The notes beneath the pieces are model-generated. The model was given only the letters and a program-made list of their open reading frames with translations, did not search any database and had not been told where the DNA came from. Below are positions 25,603 to 33,236 of a stretch of DNA of 64,000 bases, piece after piece. Location: assembly GCF_004209755.1 (NCBI RefSeq), contig NZ_CP035913.1, positions 868,001-932,000 of the forward strand. The letters run 5' to 3'. A program made the position numbers and the translations under genes. Source of the stretch: Pseudoduganella lutea (GTDB lineage: Bacteria > Pseudomonadota > Gammaproteobacteria > Burkholderiales > Burkholderiaceae_D). How positions within the stretch are numbered: the stretch's first letter is position 1; the number at the start of each line of letters is the position of its first letter.

Positions 25603-26268
25603 ATGACCAATCCCCACCAGCACAATCCGCACTCGTACGACAGCGATGCGATCGACGCCGTCTACCGCGCCATCCGCGAGCGCCGCGACATGCGTCACTT
25701 CCGTCCCGATCCGATCGACCCGGTGCAGCTGGCGCGCTTCATCGAAGCCGCGCACAGTGCGCCCAGCGTGGGCTACATGCAACCGTGGCGCTTCCTGCGC
25801 ATCACCGACGCGGCGCTGCGGCGCGAGCTGCATGCCCACGTCGACGCCGAGCGCGCCCTTACCGCCGAAGCCATGGGCGAACGGGCCGACGAATTCATGC
25901 GCCTGAAGGTGGAAGGCATCCTCGCGTGCGGCGAGCTGCTCGTCGTGGGGCTTGTCGAGGGCCGCGAGCGCTACGTGTTCGGCCGCCGCACCATGCCGGA
26001 CATGGACCTGGCATCGGCTTCCTGCGCGATCCAGAACTTCTGGCTTGCTGCGCGGGCCGAGGGCTTGGGCGTTGGGTGGGTGTCGCTGTTTGATCCGGAG
26101 CACGTGCGTGTTCTGTGTGGAATGCCTGAAGGCAGCCGTCCTATTGCGCTGCTGTGCGTTGGCCACGTGGACGCGTTTTATCCGGAGCCGATGCTGCAGA
26201 CCGAGCGGTGGGACAGCCGGCGCGAGTTGGGCGGGATCGTTTATGAGAATACGTGGGGGACGCCATGA
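25603..26268 (+). CDS. bluB: 5,6-dimethylbenzimidazole synthase BluB
   Basis: A 221-residue flavin-dependent nitroreductase-fold protein of the BluB type. It shows the FMN-binding start AIRERRDMRHFRPDPI, the BluB-like SAPSVGYMQPWRFLRI, FGRRTMPDMDLASASCAIQN, and AEGLGVGWVSLFDP, with ALLCVGHVDAF near the end. BluB cleaves FMNH2 with oxygen to make dimethylbenzimidazole, the lower ligand of cobalamin. It points towards the cobalamin operon but is separated from it by a 5.2-kb AT-richer insert, so the two were probably neighbours before the insertion. No riboswitch is seen before it. Confidence 0.9.
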   Translation: MTNPHQHNPHSYDSDAIDAVYRAIRERRDMRHFRPDPIDPVQLARFIEAAHSAPSVGYMQPWRFLRITDAALRRELHAHVDAERALTAEAMGERADEFMRLKVEGILACGELLVVGLVEGRERYVFGRRTMPDMDLASASCAIQNFWLAARAEGLGVGWVSLFDPEHVRVLCGMPEGSRPIALLCVGHVDAFYPEPMLQTERWDSRRELGGIVYENTWGTP

Positions 26269-26341
26269 GTTCAAAAAGCATCGATCACGTAATGTGTTTT
26301 GACTTCGGACTTTCGCTCTCCTGAATGCATGGCCCCCTTTA

Positions 26342-26665
26342 CTATCCCGAACTGCAATTACGGCGGCTTAGAATATTTAACAAAACCGGCTGATTAACCT
26401 GAGCGCAACAATATTGTACGCTCCAGGCAATAGATTTTTCACCCTGACGCACCTCATCCAAGTGATTGCCGAAAAGCGCACTCGTCACCATGCGCCCGAT
26501 GTATTCCTTGGATAGTGTATTCATCTTCATGATGTGGCTTAGCGCGATGTCGGCTGACAGTCCGTCGTAGTGCCAAGCCAGCCACAAAGGATCGATGGCA
26601 AACTTAGAGCTGCTAATACAACTGGACGGGCGGTCATGGTCTGCGTTCTGTAGCGGGCACGGCAA
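26342..26665 (-). CDS. doubtful small hypothetical protein or gene fragment
   Basis: An open frame of 107 residues from a TTG; from the internal ATG at 26530 it would be about 62 residues. The text is protein-like in places (HIMKMNTLSKEYIGRMVTSA) but shows no domain, signal or membrane segment. It lies between bluB and an IS5 remnant and overlaps scar DNA, so it may be a gene fragment left by rearrangement. Confidence 0.25.
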   Translation of the reverse strand: MPCPLQNADHDRPSSCISSSKFAIDPLWLAWHYDGLSADIALSHIMKMNTLSKEYIGRMVTSALFGNHLDEVRQGEKSIAWSVQYCCAQVNQPVLLNILSRRNCSSG

Positions 26666-26670
26666 GAAGA

Positions 26671-26871
26671 AAAGTTAGCAATGATTCGTGGGCGGTGCTG
26701 GAGCCGTTGATACCGAAATTTGTCCCGTCGCTAAAAAGAGGCCGTCGGCGTTCGGTCGATGACCAGGCCAATGTGGCCGCACCGAGGCGCTACGAAACGG
26801 GTCCAAACCCGACAGATCGTGGAAAACCAAACCCCAAACGGCATATCGTCGTCGACGCGAGTCATCCATAA
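26671..26871 (+). pseudogene. internally deleted IS5-family transposase remnant
   Basis: The frame read from 26701 gives LEPLIPKFVPSLKRGRRR then SVDDQANVA, which matches the N-terminus of IS5-family transposases (W-x2-LEPLLP ... GRPRxVDDR). It jumps directly to TGPNPTDRGKPNPKRHIVV, the start of the catalytic domain, where family members have 'GPNPTDRGKPG-x-K-x-H', and ends at a stop (26869-26871). About 60-80 residues of the usual N-terminal half and the entire C-terminal catalytic part are missing. No start codon or terminal inverted repeats were found. It is a scar marking past insertion next to the KAP gene. Confidence 0.75.
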
Positions 26872-26938
26872 AGCGCTGCTCTCACCGGCTGCTGCAATCA
26901 TAACTTCTCGCCTCGTAGACGACTTGTGTAAGCGGCTC

Positions 26939-29900
26939 TTAGTCCGCGAGCACTAGGCGCTCGATCAAACGCCCCGTGGCGACTGACGGAAGCCAGTTAC
27001 TCGCACCATCGCCGGCCGCTTGCTCGCCATTGTGTTGAGCGAGCGTGACTACCAGTTCGCCATACACCTCATCGAACGTCTTGGTCTCAGGAGTGAACGA
27101 CTTTTGCAGTCTTGCACGAAGCTCTGGTTCATCGACAAGTATGCCTTGGCCGGCAAAACATTCCCGGCGCCAGCCTGGCTGCCGCGACAGGATTGCCGCA
27201 TAGGCAACGATGGCAGGACTGGCGATATCATGCGATTCGTTTTGCGCCGCCGCACGCCGACGGCGGTCTTTTCTGGTGCGCTTGCGTGCCTCGGCAACCT
27301 GGGGAGCCGCGCGTTCCAGCATCGCCAGGAACCGCACCTTGTTCACGAAGCGCTTGAAACTTCGGGGCGTCGTATAGGTTTCGCTGAGCCATTCGCTCCA
27401 CGTTTCGAGGGCGCGGAGAAAATCAACCGAATCCCGATGGACGAACCGTGGAAGCCGGACCGCCGCGCCAAATGCAGCGGCGATCAGAAGGGCGAGCGGA
27501 ACCACCACGTACCATATCGGGAACGGCGAGTCGTCGGCTAGCGCCGGGCGGTGCAGTTCTCTCAAGGGGGCGTTATCCTGTTCCTCGGCTTTTGCCCTCT
27601 CCTTGTCGCTTTCGCGACACTTTTCCGGATCTCCCTCACAGCGCTGCCGCTTCGTTCCGGACACGTCCTTCACGGCTTCGATGACCGGCAGAGGCTGGAA
27701 TGACGCCTTTTCACGTGCATTTTCGGAGTTGCTGCCAACATGAAAGCCCAGCCATGCCAAGAGGATGATCACTCCAATAGACAGTACAGCAGGTGCCAGC
27801 CGCCTGCCCAAGGTCACCAGCGTTCCGGCAATGTTTGGCTTGCTTTCTTCCGTTGGCCGGTCATTTGCCAACATGGCCTTGATGACATTGTCTCCGCTTG
27901 CAGTCACTGGAACTTCCAGGTTGAAGAGCTTTTCCAGATAACGTTCGGCGAATTCTCCCTGGGCATCGGCAGTGTGCTGGCCATTCCCTTTTGCTACCTG
28001 CTCCGCCAGATCCTTGTAAGCGTTGGCGACCGCACCACATACCCATGATTTCTCGGCACCCATCACGACGAAGCAGCGCCCGGAACTCATCAGGAAATTG
28101 ATTAACTCTAGGACCTCCGGTACGACAGCGGGATCGCATCGGTCGATATCGTCGACGAACACGACCAGCCTGCGAATGCCATAGGCATTGCATACTTCCC
28201 CGAAGTCTTTTGCAAACTGGTAACGTGCCGCCGCGGCGGATGCCAGGCTGCCCGGCCTTAAGGCTGCCGTGGCGGAAAGCAGCATCTTCGGGGTTACACC
28301 GAATGCCGTGACGATGCCCATGAAATTCTTGGCGATCAAGACGAGGCCGAGTGTCCCGCCCGCAGCGATTGCGGCCTTCCACGAGGTCGCGCTGAGTAAT
28401 CCTTCCTGCTTGTTGCCGCCCTCGTTATCGACCGCTTTCTCTTTCAGTGTTTCGGCAAGCGCAGCAAGGCTGGCCTGATCGGTGAAATACCACGCGCCAA
28501 AAAACACAAGCAAGCCAGCCAATGCGAGCAGTGGCAAGCCATCCCGCCAACGATCGGCAATCAGCCGCATGCGAAAACCCAGGCCCTGTTTGGTGTACCA
28601 GGGCAGCAGTGCCTGTTCGCGGATATGTGCGAACAGCGATGCAAGGATCTGCTCGCTTTTCTGGTGATGCCAGGCGTTGAACCATACGATCGGAAAATGC
28701 CATTCATCGAGGCGACGCCGCAGCAGCGACATGATCGAACTCTTGCCCTTTCCCCAAGGCCCCGTAATTGCGATGGAAAATGGTGGTGCCGTGGCCGGAT
28801 TTGATATGAATGCGGCCAGGCCATCCGCAATGCGGCTGTATCCGAGCTGATCTTCCTGCGGTGATGTAATGGGAACATCGGGCGAGAGCCTGTCCTCGAT
28901 CGAGGCGGGGCGCGGCAATTGGCCTGGATCGATGGTGACCGCCAGGCCTGACATGGCAAGTGCGAGCGCCGCGGTCAGCCACCACCACGGCGCAAAATAT
29001 TTTCGATACTCACCGCTCGGTGACCAATGCTGCCCGTAATCGCTGGTTTCATAGCGTTGATCATTGGTGCCTATCCAAAAACCGGCTCCGGAAAGCGGCG
29101 GGTGCCATGCGGCCATGGTACCGGTGACTCCGGTGGCGAACGAGACAGGAGACCAGGTCGTTCCACTATCCTCGGTCCGATATAGCGTTCCGGCAGCATC
29201 TACCCATCCATTTTTAGCGTCGGTAAACTGCATAACGCCGATTGGGCCATTGCTCTGGGGGACGATTTTCAGTGGCGCCCATTTATCGCCGCCATCTGAC
29301 GTACGTAATGCACGGCCTGTCCTGTCAGAAACCCATGCATGGTCAGGATCCGGCGCCGAGAGGCGAAGCAACAGATTCGCGCTGGTGAGACGGGAATCTT
29401 TGACCGGACTCACGACCATCGAAAAAGCATCGATTTTGGTCCACGCGCGTCCACCATTGACGGTTTTGTATAGCTGACCAATGTCCCCATTCATCGCCAA
29501 CAGCCACCCGTTGGCGACATCGGAAAAACTGCATGTTGCAACGTCCAAATCCATCACATCCGGCGCCAGGTGCCAGTTCGTTCCACCATCCCATGTCATG
29601 TAAAAATTCGACCCACGATTTCTTTCACTGCCAACGCGGACCCATCCGGTCGTCTCAGTCATGAAATGCATATCGTGTACATGGGAGAATGGAATTCGAG
29701 GAGGCTTGGAAGAATAACTCCATGACTCGCCTCCATCCATAGTGTGGGCGAGCGCGAGTTTCCGGGTGCTGTCGTTCGTCACGAAGGCCCACCCTCTGTC
29801 AGGCGTCATGAAAAAAATCCTGCGAATACGACCATTTGGAAGATCCAGGCCTTTCCAGCTGGCGCCCCCGTTATCTGTTCGATAGAACTCGTTTGCCAAG

Positions 29901-31216
29901 AAGGAATATACCCATCCGCGCCTGTCATCCGTAAAAAGAGTTCTTAATCGGAACGCAATCTCGGGTAACGAAGAGAACTGCCAGTTGCGCCCCCCATCCT
30001 TGGTTGATGCAAGGATGTGCTGCCCGTTTTGCGCCAGGATAAACCTGCCCGTGCCAAGCGGTCTCAAATGCAAGGCTTGCAGCCGAGGTCGCTCCAGTGA
30101 TAATGTTGCGGGCTGCCACCCCTTGCGAATATCGGTGGTGAGCCAAATCGAACCGTCGCGCGATTTGCTCCATCCTCTACCGTCTTCCGATATCTGTAGG
30201 TCTTCCGTCAGTGCAGGTACTTTATGACGGGTCCAACTGCCTCCATCGACATTTCCAGTGAATAGCTGGCCACTGTCATTGAATACCCAAATTCGATCTT
30301 TCTGAAGAGAACCAGCTTTGATTTCACCTTGAAAGTTTTCTGGCAATGTTACCGCCTGCCACTTTCCCTGATTTTTCTTGACATACAGTGCAGGCTGTGG
30401 ATTATCTAAGGTAATGGAATCGGCTCGGATTGTTATCAATAAACTTGTTGAGTTATTCTCGATTACAAATTTTTTTTGAGTAACAGGCAATGCGTTTGGT
30501 ACTATTTCCGTGTTCCAGGTTTTCCCACCATCGGAAGAAAATTGAACAATTCCTCCGTCGTTTTCCGTGCTCATCCATCCAGTTCTTGAATCGGAAAATT
30601 CAAGTGCGGTTATTCTAGGCGAATCAGGTCTTCCGAAGACTAATTTCCAAGTCTGCCCGCCATCCATTGTCTCGAATAATTGGCCCTTCATGCTTGCCCA
30701 ACCATGCTTCGGATCGATAAAGTCGATAATGGGTTTCTCGTCGTCGAGTTCGACCGGCGGGAGTGCAAGTTGTGTCCAGTTACGCCCTGCATCATTGGTC
30801 GAGAATAAGTTTGGCTCGCTACCGTAGGATATGTCGTGGATCCAGCCATGCACTGGATCTACGAACTGCATTTGCCATTCGGCAGTCGAAAGAGGAAGTC
30901 GGGCCTTTTCCCATGTGCTGGCACGATCCTTGGTCCACGCGATGGAATTTCCTTCCACGATCCACATGTGGGTACCTTCGCGCAGCGCGAAAATATCTCC
31001 CGGAGCGGTCAGCGCAAAGCGCTGCAAAGGCGAACTTTCTACAGGCGAGATCCACCATTGGCGAGACCATCGCTCGGCACGCTCAAGAGGATTTGCAAGA
31101 GGTTGCTGCAGCCAGGCAGCAATGGTCGAGAGAATCAAGATTGCAAAGCTGGATACGATCAGAAACGATCGAAGTCCGCTGAATGCCATGGCTGGCCGGG
31201 AGCGTGCCTTTATCAT
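26939..31216 (-). CDS. Asp-box beta-propeller / KAP P-loop NTPase fusion membrane protein
   Basis: A 1425-residue protein. A membrane helix (about 12-33) leads into some 690 extracytoplasmic residues with at least eleven Asp-box motifs (S/T-x-D-x-G-x-x-W: STNDAGRNW, ETMDGGQTW, SSDGGKTW, KDGGRNW, MTWDGGTNW). These are typical of Ycf48/BNR and sialidase propellers. A second helix (about 734-756, WWWLTAALALAMSGLAV) precedes a cytoplasmic KAP NTPase, with Walker A ITGPWGKGKSS near 815-825 and Walker B LVVFVDDIDRCDP near 1014. KAP-style inserted helices lie at about 890-910 and 945-970, and more helices at 1135-1157 and 1229-1252. DNA encoding the propeller is AT-rich (19 G/C among 30421-30480), unlike the surroundings, suggesting transfer. 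AGAGGG before the ATG supports the start. KAP NTPases are membrane-linked, some in phage exclusion; the role here is unknown. Confidence 0.88.
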   Translation of the reverse strand: MIKARSRPAMAFSGLRSFLIVSSFAILILSTIAAWLQQPLANPLERAERWSRQWWISPVESSPLQRFALTAPGDIFALREGTHMWIVEGNSIAWTKDRASTWEKARLPLSTAEWQMQFVDPVHGWIHDISYGSEPNLFSTNDAGRNWTQLALPPVELDDEKPIIDFIDPKHGWASMKGQLFETMDGGQTWKLVFGRPDSPRITALEFSDSRTGWMSTENDGGIVQFSSDGGKTWNTEIVPNALPVTQKKFVIENNSTSLLITIRADSITLDNPQPALYVKKNQGKWQAVTLPENFQGEIKAGSLQKDRIWVFNDSGQLFTGNVDGGSWTRHKVPALTEDLQISEDGRGWSKSRDGSIWLTTDIRKGWQPATLSLERPRLQALHLRPLGTGRFILAQNGQHILASTKDGGRNWQFSSLPEIAFRLRTLFTDDRRGWVYSFLANEFYRTDNGGASWKGLDLPNGRIRRIFFMTPDRGWAFVTNDSTRKLALAHTMDGGESWSYSSKPPRIPFSHVHDMHFMTETTGWVRVGSERNRGSNFYMTWDGGTNWHLAPDVMDLDVATCSFSDVANGWLLAMNGDIGQLYKTVNGGRAWTKIDAFSMVVSPVKDSRLTSANLLLRLSAPDPDHAWVSDRTGRALRTSDGGDKWAPLKIVPQSNGPIGVMQFTDAKNGWVDAAGTLYRTEDSGTTWSPVSFATGVTGTMAAWHPPLSGAGFWIGTNDQRYETSDYGQHWSPSGEYRKYFAPWWWLTAALALAMSGLAVTIDPGQLPRPASIEDRLSPDVPITSPQEDQLGYSRIADGLAAFISNPATAPPFSIAITGPWGKGKSSIMSLLRRRLDEWHFPIVWFNAWHHQKSEQILASLFAHIREQALLPWYTKQGLGFRMRLIADRWRDGLPLLALAGLLVFFGAWYFTDQASLAALAETLKEKAVDNEGGNKQEGLLSATSWKAAIAAGGTLGLVLIAKNFMGIVTAFGVTPKMLLSATAALRPGSLASAAAARYQFAKDFGEVCNAYGIRRLVVFVDDIDRCDPAVVPEVLELINFLMSSGRCFVVMGAEKSWVCGAVANAYKDLAEQVAKGNGQHTADAQGEFAERYLEKLFNLEVPVTASGDNVIKAMLANDRPTEESKPNIAGTLVTLGRRLAPAVLSIGVIILLAWLGFHVGSNSENAREKASFQPLPVIEAVKDVSGTKRQRCEGDPEKCRESDKERAKAEEQDNAPLRELHRPALADDSPFPIWYVVVPLALLIAAAFGAAVRLPRFVHRDSVDFLRALETWSEWLSETYTTPRSFKRFVNKVRFLAMLERAAPQVAEARKRTRKDRRRRAAAQNESHDIASPAIVAYAAILSRQPGWRRECFAGQGILVDEPELRARLQKSFTPETKTFDEVYGELVVTLAQHNGEQAAGDGASNWLPSVATGRLIERLVLAD

Positions 31217-31448
31217 CCTGCCCTCTTGTCATCAGGTACGCGCCTGTCAATGCAGTGCAGGCATTGGTATAGGCTTCAACTTATACGTTTTTGCCTGTCG
31301 TTCCGGGTGCCCATGACCTACGTTAATTCCATATTACGCGGCAATGCGATGACAAGATATCGACGATCATGATGCACGTTGTAAAACGACAAATCCCACT
31401 CTGCCTGCAGGCAGTGCAAGCGATCAGGCCATAGCAACGCATGGGGGA
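31217..31448. other. AT-richer gap between the KAP gene and cobalamin operon
   Basis: This 232-base gap contains the promoter area for the leftward KAP gene and the 3' end of the cobalamin transcript. A 14-base perfect palindrome, CTGCCTGCAGGCAG (31401-31414), lies 35 bases after the last cobalamin gene and may form part of a terminator, but no U-tract adjoins it. Confidence 0.4.
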
Positions 31449-31805
31449 TCACTCCTCGCCAGCCTGGTGGAACACCAGTTCCTCCACACGCCGCCCATTG
31501 CACAGGTGCTCGCCGATGATGCGGTCCATGTTTTCCGGCGTGACGTTGTAGTACCACGTGCCGTCCGGCTGCACGCACACGATCGGACCGCCCTTGCAGG
31601 CGGCGAAGCAGCCGACCCGGCTGCGCTTGACGCGCAGGTCGCCCGTCGTCAGGCCAGCCGCTTTCAGCTTGTCGCCCAGGCTGTCGAACAGTGCCTGCGA
31701 TGCGTCGTCCGCGCTGCAGCGCGGGCCCGTGCACACCAGCAGGTGGCGGCGGTAGCTGCCGATCTTTGGTTTCACCACTTCGGCGGTTTTGCTGACTTCG
31801 CTCAT
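31449..31805 (-). CDS. thioredoxin-like [2Fe-2S] ferredoxin of the cobalamin operon
   Basis: A 118-residue protein with cysteines in LLVCTGPRCSAD and GCFAACKGGPIVCV. This is the spacing of thioredoxin-fold [2Fe-2S] ferredoxins, like the subunit of complex I. YYNVTPENMDRIIGEHL near the C-terminus is also typical. Small ferredoxins of this kind recur in cobalamin operons and may supply electrons to a ring-modifying enzyme or a cobalt-reduction step; the partner is not established. Its ATG overlaps the cobJ stop by four bases (ATGA). It is the last gene of the operon. Confidence 0.85.
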   Translation of the reverse strand: MSEVSKTAEVVKPKIGSYRRHLLVCTGPRCSADDASQALFDSLGDKLKAAGLTTGDLRVKRSRVGCFAACKGGPIVCVQPDGTWYYNVTPENMDRIIGEHLCNGRRVEELVFHQAGEE

Positions 31806-32812
31806 GCTTCCCCCTCCCCTGCCGGCACGGCTTCGTCGGCCCACGGCTCGGCCAGCGTGGCGGCGATGTAGTCGGCCGGCAGGCGGTGGCGGGCCGCCAG
31901 CGCCGCGATGCTGGCACCGGCCGCATGCTCCGCCTGCAGCGTATCGAGCCAGCCCAGCAGGCCCGTCGACAGCGAGCGGCCGGCCTTTTCGCCGGCGCGC
32001 GTGGTGCCGCCTTCTTCCATGTCGTATTTGTTGGCGTAGCCGCGTGGCGTGACCATCAGGCCATTGCGCACGAACGTGTTGCTGTTGCCGATCAGGACGG
32101 TGCTGAGCATGCCGATGTCCGCGTCGGCCATCCGGTCGAGCGTGGTGAACACGATGTTCTCGCGGCGCCGGTAGGCGCTCTTGACGATCGCCACCGGCGT
32201 GTCGGCCCGGCGGTGGCGCAGGAACAGGCGCTGCGCCTCGACGATCTGGCGCGTGCGCCGGCCGCTCTTCGGGTTGTACAGCGCGACCACGAAGTCGGCC
32301 ATCGCCACCGCGTCGAGGCGGCGCGCGATCGTGGGCCATGGCGTGAGCAGGTCCGACAGCGAGATCGCGCAGAAGTCGTGCGTCAGCGGCGCGCCCACCA
32401 GCGCGGCGCAGCTGTTCAATGCCGACGCGCCTGGCACGATCTCCACCTGCACGGGATCGTCGGGTGTCCAGCCGGACTGGAACAGCACCTCGTAGGTGGG
32501 CCCGGCCATGCCGTACACGCCGGCGTCGCCCGACGAGATCAGCGCCACCTTCTTGCCGGCGCGCGCGGCTTCGAGCGCGCTCACGGCGCGGTCGAGCTCC
32601 TCGGTCATCGACTTGCGGATGATCTCCTTGCCCTCGAGGAGATCCGCCACAAGCTTGATGTAGGTGACGTAGCCGATCACCACGTCGGCTTCGGCGATGG
32701 CCGCGCGGGCCCTGGCGGTCATGTGCTCCACGCTGCCGGGGCCGATCCCCACCAGCATGATCTTGCCGGCGGTGGCCGGCGGCATTTCAGGTAATGCGGA
32801 CAAATCGTTCAT
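31802..32812 (-). CDS. cobJ: precorrin-3B C17-methyltransferase
   Basis: A 336-residue SAM-dependent tetrapyrrole methylase. Motifs are LVGIGPGSVEHMT at the N-terminus, SSGDAGVYGMAG near 95-110, EIVPGASALNS, and VALYNPKSGRRT, which is typical of CobJ/CbiH. It methylates C17 and drives ring contraction. The last 60 residues (after GYANKYDMEEGG) form an extra helical tail. The ATG at 32812 (MNDLSALPE) is chosen; it overlaps cobE by 26 bases. A longer in-frame start at 32851 would overlap more. Confidence 0.92.
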   Translation of the reverse strand: MNDLSALPEMPPATAGKIMLVGIGPGSVEHMTARARAAIAEADVVIGYVTYIKLVADLLEGKEIIRKSMTEELDRAVSALEAARAGKKVALISSGDAGVYGMAGPTYEVLFQSGWTPDDPVQVEIVPGASALNSCAALVGAPLTHDFCAISLSDLLTPWPTIARRLDAVAMADFVVALYNPKSGRRTRQIVEAQRLFLRHRRADTPVAIVKSAYRRRENIVFTTLDRMADADIGMLSTVLIGNSNTFVRNGLMVTPRGYANKYDMEEGGTTRAGEKAGRSLSTGLLGWLDTLQAEHAAGASIAALAARHRLPADYIAATLAEPWADEAVPAGEGEA

Positions 32813-33236
32813 GGTTCTTCCTGGCGATCGAGACGGTGGCATGACGGCCATCGGCGCCCCGGTGTTTGTGTTTTTCGACGATGAGGGCCGTCATCGGCGT
32901 GCCCGCCCCGGCGGCCAGCAGCGCGGCCGCTTCACTGACGGACGGCGTGCCCGTGTAGCGCAGCACCGTGGCCGACGGGTGCGGCACCGGCACGGCGGCC
33001 AGCGCCGCGGCTTCATAGAAACGCAGAGGCCAGCCGTATTCGCTGGCGATGGCCAGCAGCGCCGCTTCATCCTGCTTGAGCGTGATCGACGCCGCCGCCG
33101 TCACCTGCGAGGGCATCGCGCCAGCCTCGCGCAGCGCGGCCTGCACGGCTTCGCGCACCGTCTGCAAGGCCACGCCGCGGTCGCAACCGAGGCCCACGGT
33201 GTAGGTGTCCACGGCGGGGTCCACCGCGGTGCTCAC
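32787..33236 (-). CDS. cobE: CobE / CbiG C-terminal domain protein
   Basis: A 149-residue protein equivalent to the C-terminal domain of CbiG (CobE fold). It begins DTYTVGLGCDRGVALQTV, where GLGC-x-RG is the family hallmark, and includes ITLKQDEAALLAIASEYGWPLRFY and PSVSEAAALLAAG. A GTG start at 33236 overlaps the cbiG stop in a GTGA arrangement, so translation is coupled. CobE is required in cobalamin synthesis, but its exact function is unsettled. Confidence 0.88.
   Translation of the reverse strand: MSTAVDPAVDTYTVGLGCDRGVALQTVREAVQAALREAGAMPSQVTAAASITLKQDEAALLAIASEYGWPLRFYEAAALAAVPVPHPSATVLRYTGTPSVSEAAALLAAGAGTPMTALIVEKHKHRGADGRHATVSIARKNHERFVRIT

Follow-up and report, generated by a model that had tools for sequence, protein, structure and literature searches.

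The question raised by this locus is what a bacterium does with a single protein in which a large Asp-box propeller part, predicted to lie outside the inner membrane, is fused to a KAP-type P-loop NTPase. The gene in question was found in a window of 64,000 nucleotides (nt; G000:C1:868001-932000) from the 7.5 Mb, single-contig genome of Pseudoduganella lutea; coordinates below are positions within this window unless another contig is named. It occupies 26939-31216 on the minus strand and is one uninterrupted frame of 1425 codons with an ATG start. The anatomy of the encoded protein is well supported, and we give roughly even weight to the proposal that it is a one-gene inner-membrane sensor ATPase. 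Envelope surveillance is the most likely biology, with anti-phage or superinfection exclusion as its leading, if tentative, specific case; defence and envelope maintenance are close rivals.

The protein scores far above the curated Pfam cut-offs for KAP_NTPase (99.8 bits against 20), for the YCF48-type profile PSII_BNR (PF14870; 88.2 against 27) and for Sortilin-Vps10 (80.9 against 33). Hydropathy analysis delineates six hydrophobic segments, numbered here as predicted transmembrane (TM) segments, all read on the minus strand. An N-terminal anchor, TM1 (residues 18-36; 31109-31165), is preceded by 15 residues that hold four lysines or arginines and no acidic residue. It is followed by a predicted periplasmic domain with about 14 Asp-box repeats (residues 38-742; 28991-31105) and by TM2 (residues 744-762; 28931-28987), which joins the propellers to the KAP core, scores at the hydropathy threshold (1.55) and corresponds to helix 9-26 of the structure model. 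Beyond these two N-side helices lie two further hydrophobic hairpins, the first made up of TM3 (residues 893-911; 28484-28540) and TM4 (residues 950-968; 28313-28369), the latter again at threshold (1.55) and both helical in the structure model, and the second of TM5 (residues 1136-1154; 27755-27811) and TM6 (residues 1237-1255; 27452-27508). The sequence and the structure model thus support a predicted order of N-terminal anchor, Asp-box repeats, second hydrophobic segment, and a KAP core with intact Walker motifs, one hairpin within it and another following. The initial annotation had described a 1425-residue frame with a membrane helix, a second helix, at least eleven Asp boxes and KAP-type Walker A and B motifs; the propeller-KAP frame and its membrane segments are real, the strand, which it had not given, is minus, and the boxes and motifs bear out its description as set out below.

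The strict Asp-box motif S/T-x-D-x-G-x-x-W occurs nine times in the protein, and eleven times if asparagine is permitted for aspartate; in 2000 shuffles of the protein the strict motif appeared 0.03 times on average and never more than once. The structure prediction and blade count that the initial annotation had proposed were carried out, and blade counts across the family, made with a profile derived from the family's own sequences and including near-duplicate rows (e.g. L097/L098, L056/L057 and P0001/L001), peak at 14 and at 7. The outer part is therefore probably composed of two or one seven-bladed propellers, depending on the family member, and the roughly 14 repeats of the window protein, together with its Pfam matches, motif counts, structure model and Foldseek matches, are read as two propellers in tandem. 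By sequence, the only matches in the PDB at an expectation value (E) of 0.01 are the assembly factors Ycf48 and HCF136, a likeness also seen in the PSII_BNR score. Ycf48 itself is a single seven-bladed, stand-alone protein that acts in photosystem II assembly, where it holds a folding protein. The Ycf48 chains among the PDB matches have 326-347 residues, and the window protein falls well under the Ycf48 equivalog cut-off (92.1 against 326).

The KAP half agrees with PF07693 in its profile score, in its intact Walker A motif GPWGKGKSS (residues 819-827; 28736-28762) and Walker B motif VVFVDDIDRCDP (residues 1018-1029; 28130-28165), and in the placement of TM3 and TM4 between the two. In an alignment of 54 rows, K825 of Walker A is invariant, as are D1022, D1023, D1025, R1026 and C1027 of Walker B and, within the C-terminal conserved motif TPRSFKRFVNKVRFLAML (residues 1283-1300; 27317-27370), P1284, R1285, N1292 and R1295. 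Searched by sequence against the PDB, the KAP part returned nothing significant; by fold, the nearest solved structure is RdrA of the RADAR defence system, a heptameric ring ATPase, and the modelled core conforms to the RdrA-like AAA+ fold. According to one account, RdrA combines an AAA+ domain with a helical lobe at the C-terminus and acts together with the deaminase RdrB (PMC9994260). The window protein differs in that its first insertion carries predicted membrane helices and propellers precede its core, and in that no RdrB deaminase gene is adjacent in the window, where the flanks are bluB and a pair of ferredoxin-like and cobJ-type genes.

Among defence profiles, those nearest to the KAP part are PifA (E 6e-23) and QatA (E 8e-20). 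The PifA match falls in two stretches, the better of which covers positions 4-98 of 720. The QatA protein of the qatABCD system is also matched in NCBIfam (E 2e-25), at 89.5 bits, far short of the equivalog cut-off of 600. No match named Tmn appeared in the defence-profile search of the KAP part. PifA and Tmn resemble the window protein as KAP P-loop NTPases whose P-loop core is interrupted and followed by hydrophobic segments, and differ in that the window protein has a propeller part of 700 residues ahead of that core. Tmn is reported to be an NTPase of the KAP family with inhibitory activity against T2, P1 and other phages (PMC11846954).

Proteins that keep both halves were sought, as the initial annotation had suggested, and were found: KAP and YCF48 domains occur together in 18 of 41 database proteins (the query and 17 others, some of them fragments), and contigs of nine phyla carry the fusion. 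A scan of GTDB species genomes yielded 415 relatives, and the titles of the best 80 of these, by our reading, all come from diderm groups. Full fusions were found in Pseudomonadota, Acidobacteriota, Planctomycetota, Gemmatimonadota, Verrucomicrobiota, Spirochaetota, Myxococcota, Thermodesulfobacteriota and Tectimicrobiota, and also in KSB1. Closer to home the fusion is sparse. Within the genus, 3 of 60 genomes carry it in full, this one included (at most five candidates scored per genome after a first look), and the copies in the other two (G018 and G022) are 29% identical to the window protein over the KAP part. In a scan of 398 genomes of the phylum, with at most two candidates scored in each, both halves were matched at E 1e-50 in this genome only, and a second genome gave a match at propeller positions only. 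A scan of genome contigs with P0001 as the sole query gave no match. The fusion is thus rare and patchy and, given its spread, probably old. The architecture is recurrent, and no description of it was found in the open-access literature, subscription journals being outside the scope of that search.

Some relatives carry other N-terminal modules, WD40 or OmpA, on the same KAP core. On a phylogenetic tree the N-terminal labels change eight times, four of these changes being forced by starred branches; the class labelled 'other' (n=18) takes in a truncated contig (L047), a split gene (L024) and KAP proteins without an outer part (L002, L099, L100 and L101), and the count of eight therefore overstates module exchange. 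The window protein sits on a long branch (2.38) outside any starred set.

Clustering of 976 neighbouring open reading frames (ORFs) from 82 loci, picked greedily by length so that some may be spurious, revealed no partner gene that the family as a whole retains; the largest clusters span 18, 9, 8 and 7 loci at mixed positions. A same-strand neighbour lies within 60 nt upstream in 7 of 71 cases and downstream in 15 of 78. Since no partner gene is conserved, sensor and effector would share one chain. We infer a mechanism in which the Asp-box repeats would fold in the periplasm into a tandem pair of seven-bladed propellers and bind an envelope ligand, while the KAP core, facing the cytosol, would work as an ATP-dependent ring by analogy with RdrA, its first membrane hairpin standing at about the position of the RdrA 'crown' insertion. 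Ligand binding would then alter ring assembly or ATP hydrolysis across the membrane, and the output would act at the membrane. The sensor-ATPase reading agrees with the topology as predicted, with the variety of N-terminal modules and with the organisation in a single gene. If it is correct, one gene would encode a directly testable device for outside-in signalling, in which a large propeller on the outside is coupled across the membrane to a KAP ATPase, and the RdrA match offers a structural template of the ATPase; the pattern of 7 and 14 blades and the differing N-terminal modules suggest that recognition is the variable part. To our knowledge, sensing takes place in the cytosol for most of the bacterial immune NTPases described so far. 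The initial annotation had read the protein as a transmembrane receptor triggering an inner NTPase. What stands of this is that one half of the protein is a propeller part and the other a KAP NTPase, and that the whole is predicted to span the membrane; related KAP cores that bear other N-terminal modules favour the receptor idea, and the interpretation as a whole is partly supported. A bolder extension is possible and, in our estimate, doubtful: a widespread family of transmembrane immune-type receptors, in which a conserved KAP ring ATPase, resembling RdrA and seated in the inner membrane, is driven by exchangeable periplasmic recognition modules (7- or 14-bladed Asp-box, WD40 or OmpA), each a single gene sensing phage or envelope damage from outside, and which at least one phage lineage also uses.

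The specific form of surveillance that we tentatively place first is exclusion or abortive infection by a single gene, in the manner of PifA or Tmn, in which the propeller would sense incoming phage at the envelope. The PifA and QatA profile matches, the RdrA fold and the activity attributed to Tmn point in this direction, as does carriage of the fusion by phage. Two IMG/VR contigs carry a 14-bladed fusion (L098, 6985-10911, on the same phage contig as L117 and L118; and L097, 5935-9861). On the phage contig the three genes ahead of the fusion encode, according to PHROGs, a head maturation protease, a major head protein and a minor tail protein, the second gene past it encodes a tape-measure protein (E 4.5e-8), and the named structural genes are all on the strand of the fusion. 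An ORF of 202 residues ends 692 nt before the fusion and one of 163 residues starts 58 nt after it, neither of them assigned by PHROGs. A slot between phage tail genes is typical for accessory genes, and the phage-borne copy is a natural spot to look for exclusion. Of 19 viral-contig KAP relatives, two are these fusion contigs, and the other 17 comprise 16 with a KAP frame free of Asp boxes and one in which no frame was obtained. The copy from Siccirubricoccus (L068, 3312-15338) lies among ORFs that, by our reading and with no profile match, resemble recombinases and a transposase, which also counts in favour of exclusion.

Several observations weigh against a defence role. The two phage contigs encode identical proteins and therefore represent one lineage only. 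When one neighbour each was searched against PHROGs, L068 gave nothing and L082 only a family of unknown function. Among 50,697 GenBank phage records the window protein has no match, and the phage copy matches six over propeller parts only; among 72,556 plasmid records, searched with three queries, none reaches 80% coverage of a query, and no plasmid match listed (40 of 59 for one query) extends over both halves. In 260 near neighbours from 75 of the 82 loci (seven near-duplicates dropped; the two nearest ORFs of at least 110 residues per side, with 14 ORFs above 900 residues dropped), PADLOC at 1e-15 gave few specific defence matches among the families listed. In a first set (25 of 44 families listed) these were mad3 (4), DndA and SspA (3 each), and RTasHel, a GajB/UvrD helicase and RtcR-like regulators (1 each), and in a second (25 of 26 listed) mad3 (1) and single matches to GajA, MzaA, RtcR-like, DrmD, PDC-M72A, AriA, AbiLi and NsnB; several families may be one protein, and the counts come from near neighbours alone, with no control set for comparison. 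We read mad3, DndA/SspA and RtcR as broad families. The Pfam families listed for the same neighbours (25 of 99 and 25 of 126) are ordinary housekeeping, signalling and transport families, among them ribosomal protein S6, LptF/LptG, peptide deformylase and RecA. The ratio of nonsynonymous to synonymous substitution rates (omega) is 0.13-0.46 in the outer half (15 pairs) and 0.06-0.52 in the KAP half (14 computable pairs), below 1 in every case, with the first methionine taken as start so that some ectodomains are shortened (the L029 comparisons covering 165 codons) and with pairs of synonymous divergence (dS) above 1 being unreliable. The outer half thus averages well below 1, with no diversifying selection as an average over the ectodomain, where single sites may still differ. 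Finally, a base composition richer in AT than the host is not general in the family, the GC content of gene minus flank averaging +0.006 over 67 loci. The defence or competition role proposed by the initial annotation is accordingly not established: the RdrA fold, the PifA and QatA profiles and the phage lineage with the fusion in its tail module speak for it, and the observations of this paragraph against it.

Many of the same observations would suit a resident factor of envelope maintenance or assembly, in which propellers of Ycf48 type would keep hold of envelope proteins as they fold and the KAP ATPase would supply the energy for assembly or release, with no immune role. The restriction of PDB sequence matches to Ycf48 and HCF136 favours such a factor, as do the housekeeping families among the neighbours, values of omega below 1 in all computable pairs of both halves, a base composition that on average agrees with that of the host, and three Methylomonas loci that have neighbours in common on both sides. 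Its patchy occurrence in the genus and the phylum, the arrival of the window copy as an insertion and the carriage of the fusion by a phage lineage speak against residence, and we hold this explanation tentatively, close behind exclusion.

An outer domain of GH74 or sialidase type that binds or cleaves glycans and feeds an ATP-driven process is improbable. Foldseek matches the outer domain best to GH74 xyloglucanases with tandem propellers, and sialidases and GH74 enzymes are among the matches of the profile search; the likeness to GH74 is one of fold only, propeller folds are common to many functions, and the sequence is nearest to Ycf48. A joining of two separate genes by sequencing error, an alternative that the initial annotation had allowed for, is rejected as having a negligible chance of being right, given the open frame on a single-contig genome and independent full fusions in distant bacteria: no support for it was found, and three loci in which the protein is split over two ORFs (L024, L043 and L084) are read as frameshifts or assembly errors there.

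The window copy of the gene was horizontally acquired, we conclude. At third codon positions its GC content is 0.59, compared with 0.82-0.91 for the seven other genes of the window that were measured, and a segment of 5.2 kb between matched flanks (26259-31447, its first 10 nt being the end of bluB) is absent from two genomes of the same genus (G031 and G058), in which the bluB and cobalamin-cluster flanks lie 28 and 33 nt apart. The AT-richer, acquired DNA described in the initial annotation is thereby borne out for this copy. The left flank is bluB (25603-26268, plus strand; NCBIfam BluB, 249.9 against a cut-off of 150). At the right junction lies a 2Fe-2S ferredoxin-like ORF identified by a Pfam match (31449-32339), which overlaps a cobJ-type gene (31802-32851, minus strand; TIGR01466, 320.9 against 246.35). 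Inside the insert, beside the 3' end of the fusion gene, a weak match below cut-off (E 0.007) marks a possible decayed IS4/5 transposase fragment (26680-26868, plus strand). Among the 60 genus genomes, by our reading, the flanks are close together in the order of the window only in G031, G058 and G044; in G037, G048 and G009 they are side by side with bluB reversed, and in the remaining genomes one flank is absent or elsewhere.

Some smaller observations concern the protein family. In the loop between TM5 and TM6, the second predicted periplasmic loop, a cysteine pair before TM6 is common to the five closest proteins (P0001-P0005); among the other 13, two cysteines occur in this loop only in P0007, at different positions. 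In two pairs of loci, dS is much greater in the outer half than in the KAP half (L035/L045, 1.84 against 0.40; L079/L090, 1.94 against 0.82), as if ectodomains recombine, and in L079/L083 the order is reversed (0.10 against 0.24). A second KAP protein is encoded in the same genome (G000:C1:7091711-7092103; L002), with 840 residues in the stretch examined and no Asp boxes. Lastly, G044 has a different insert of about 1.4 kb, with a GC content of 0.59, at the same bluB/cob junction (L114, about 1025-2451), and the site may therefore be a hotspot for insertion.

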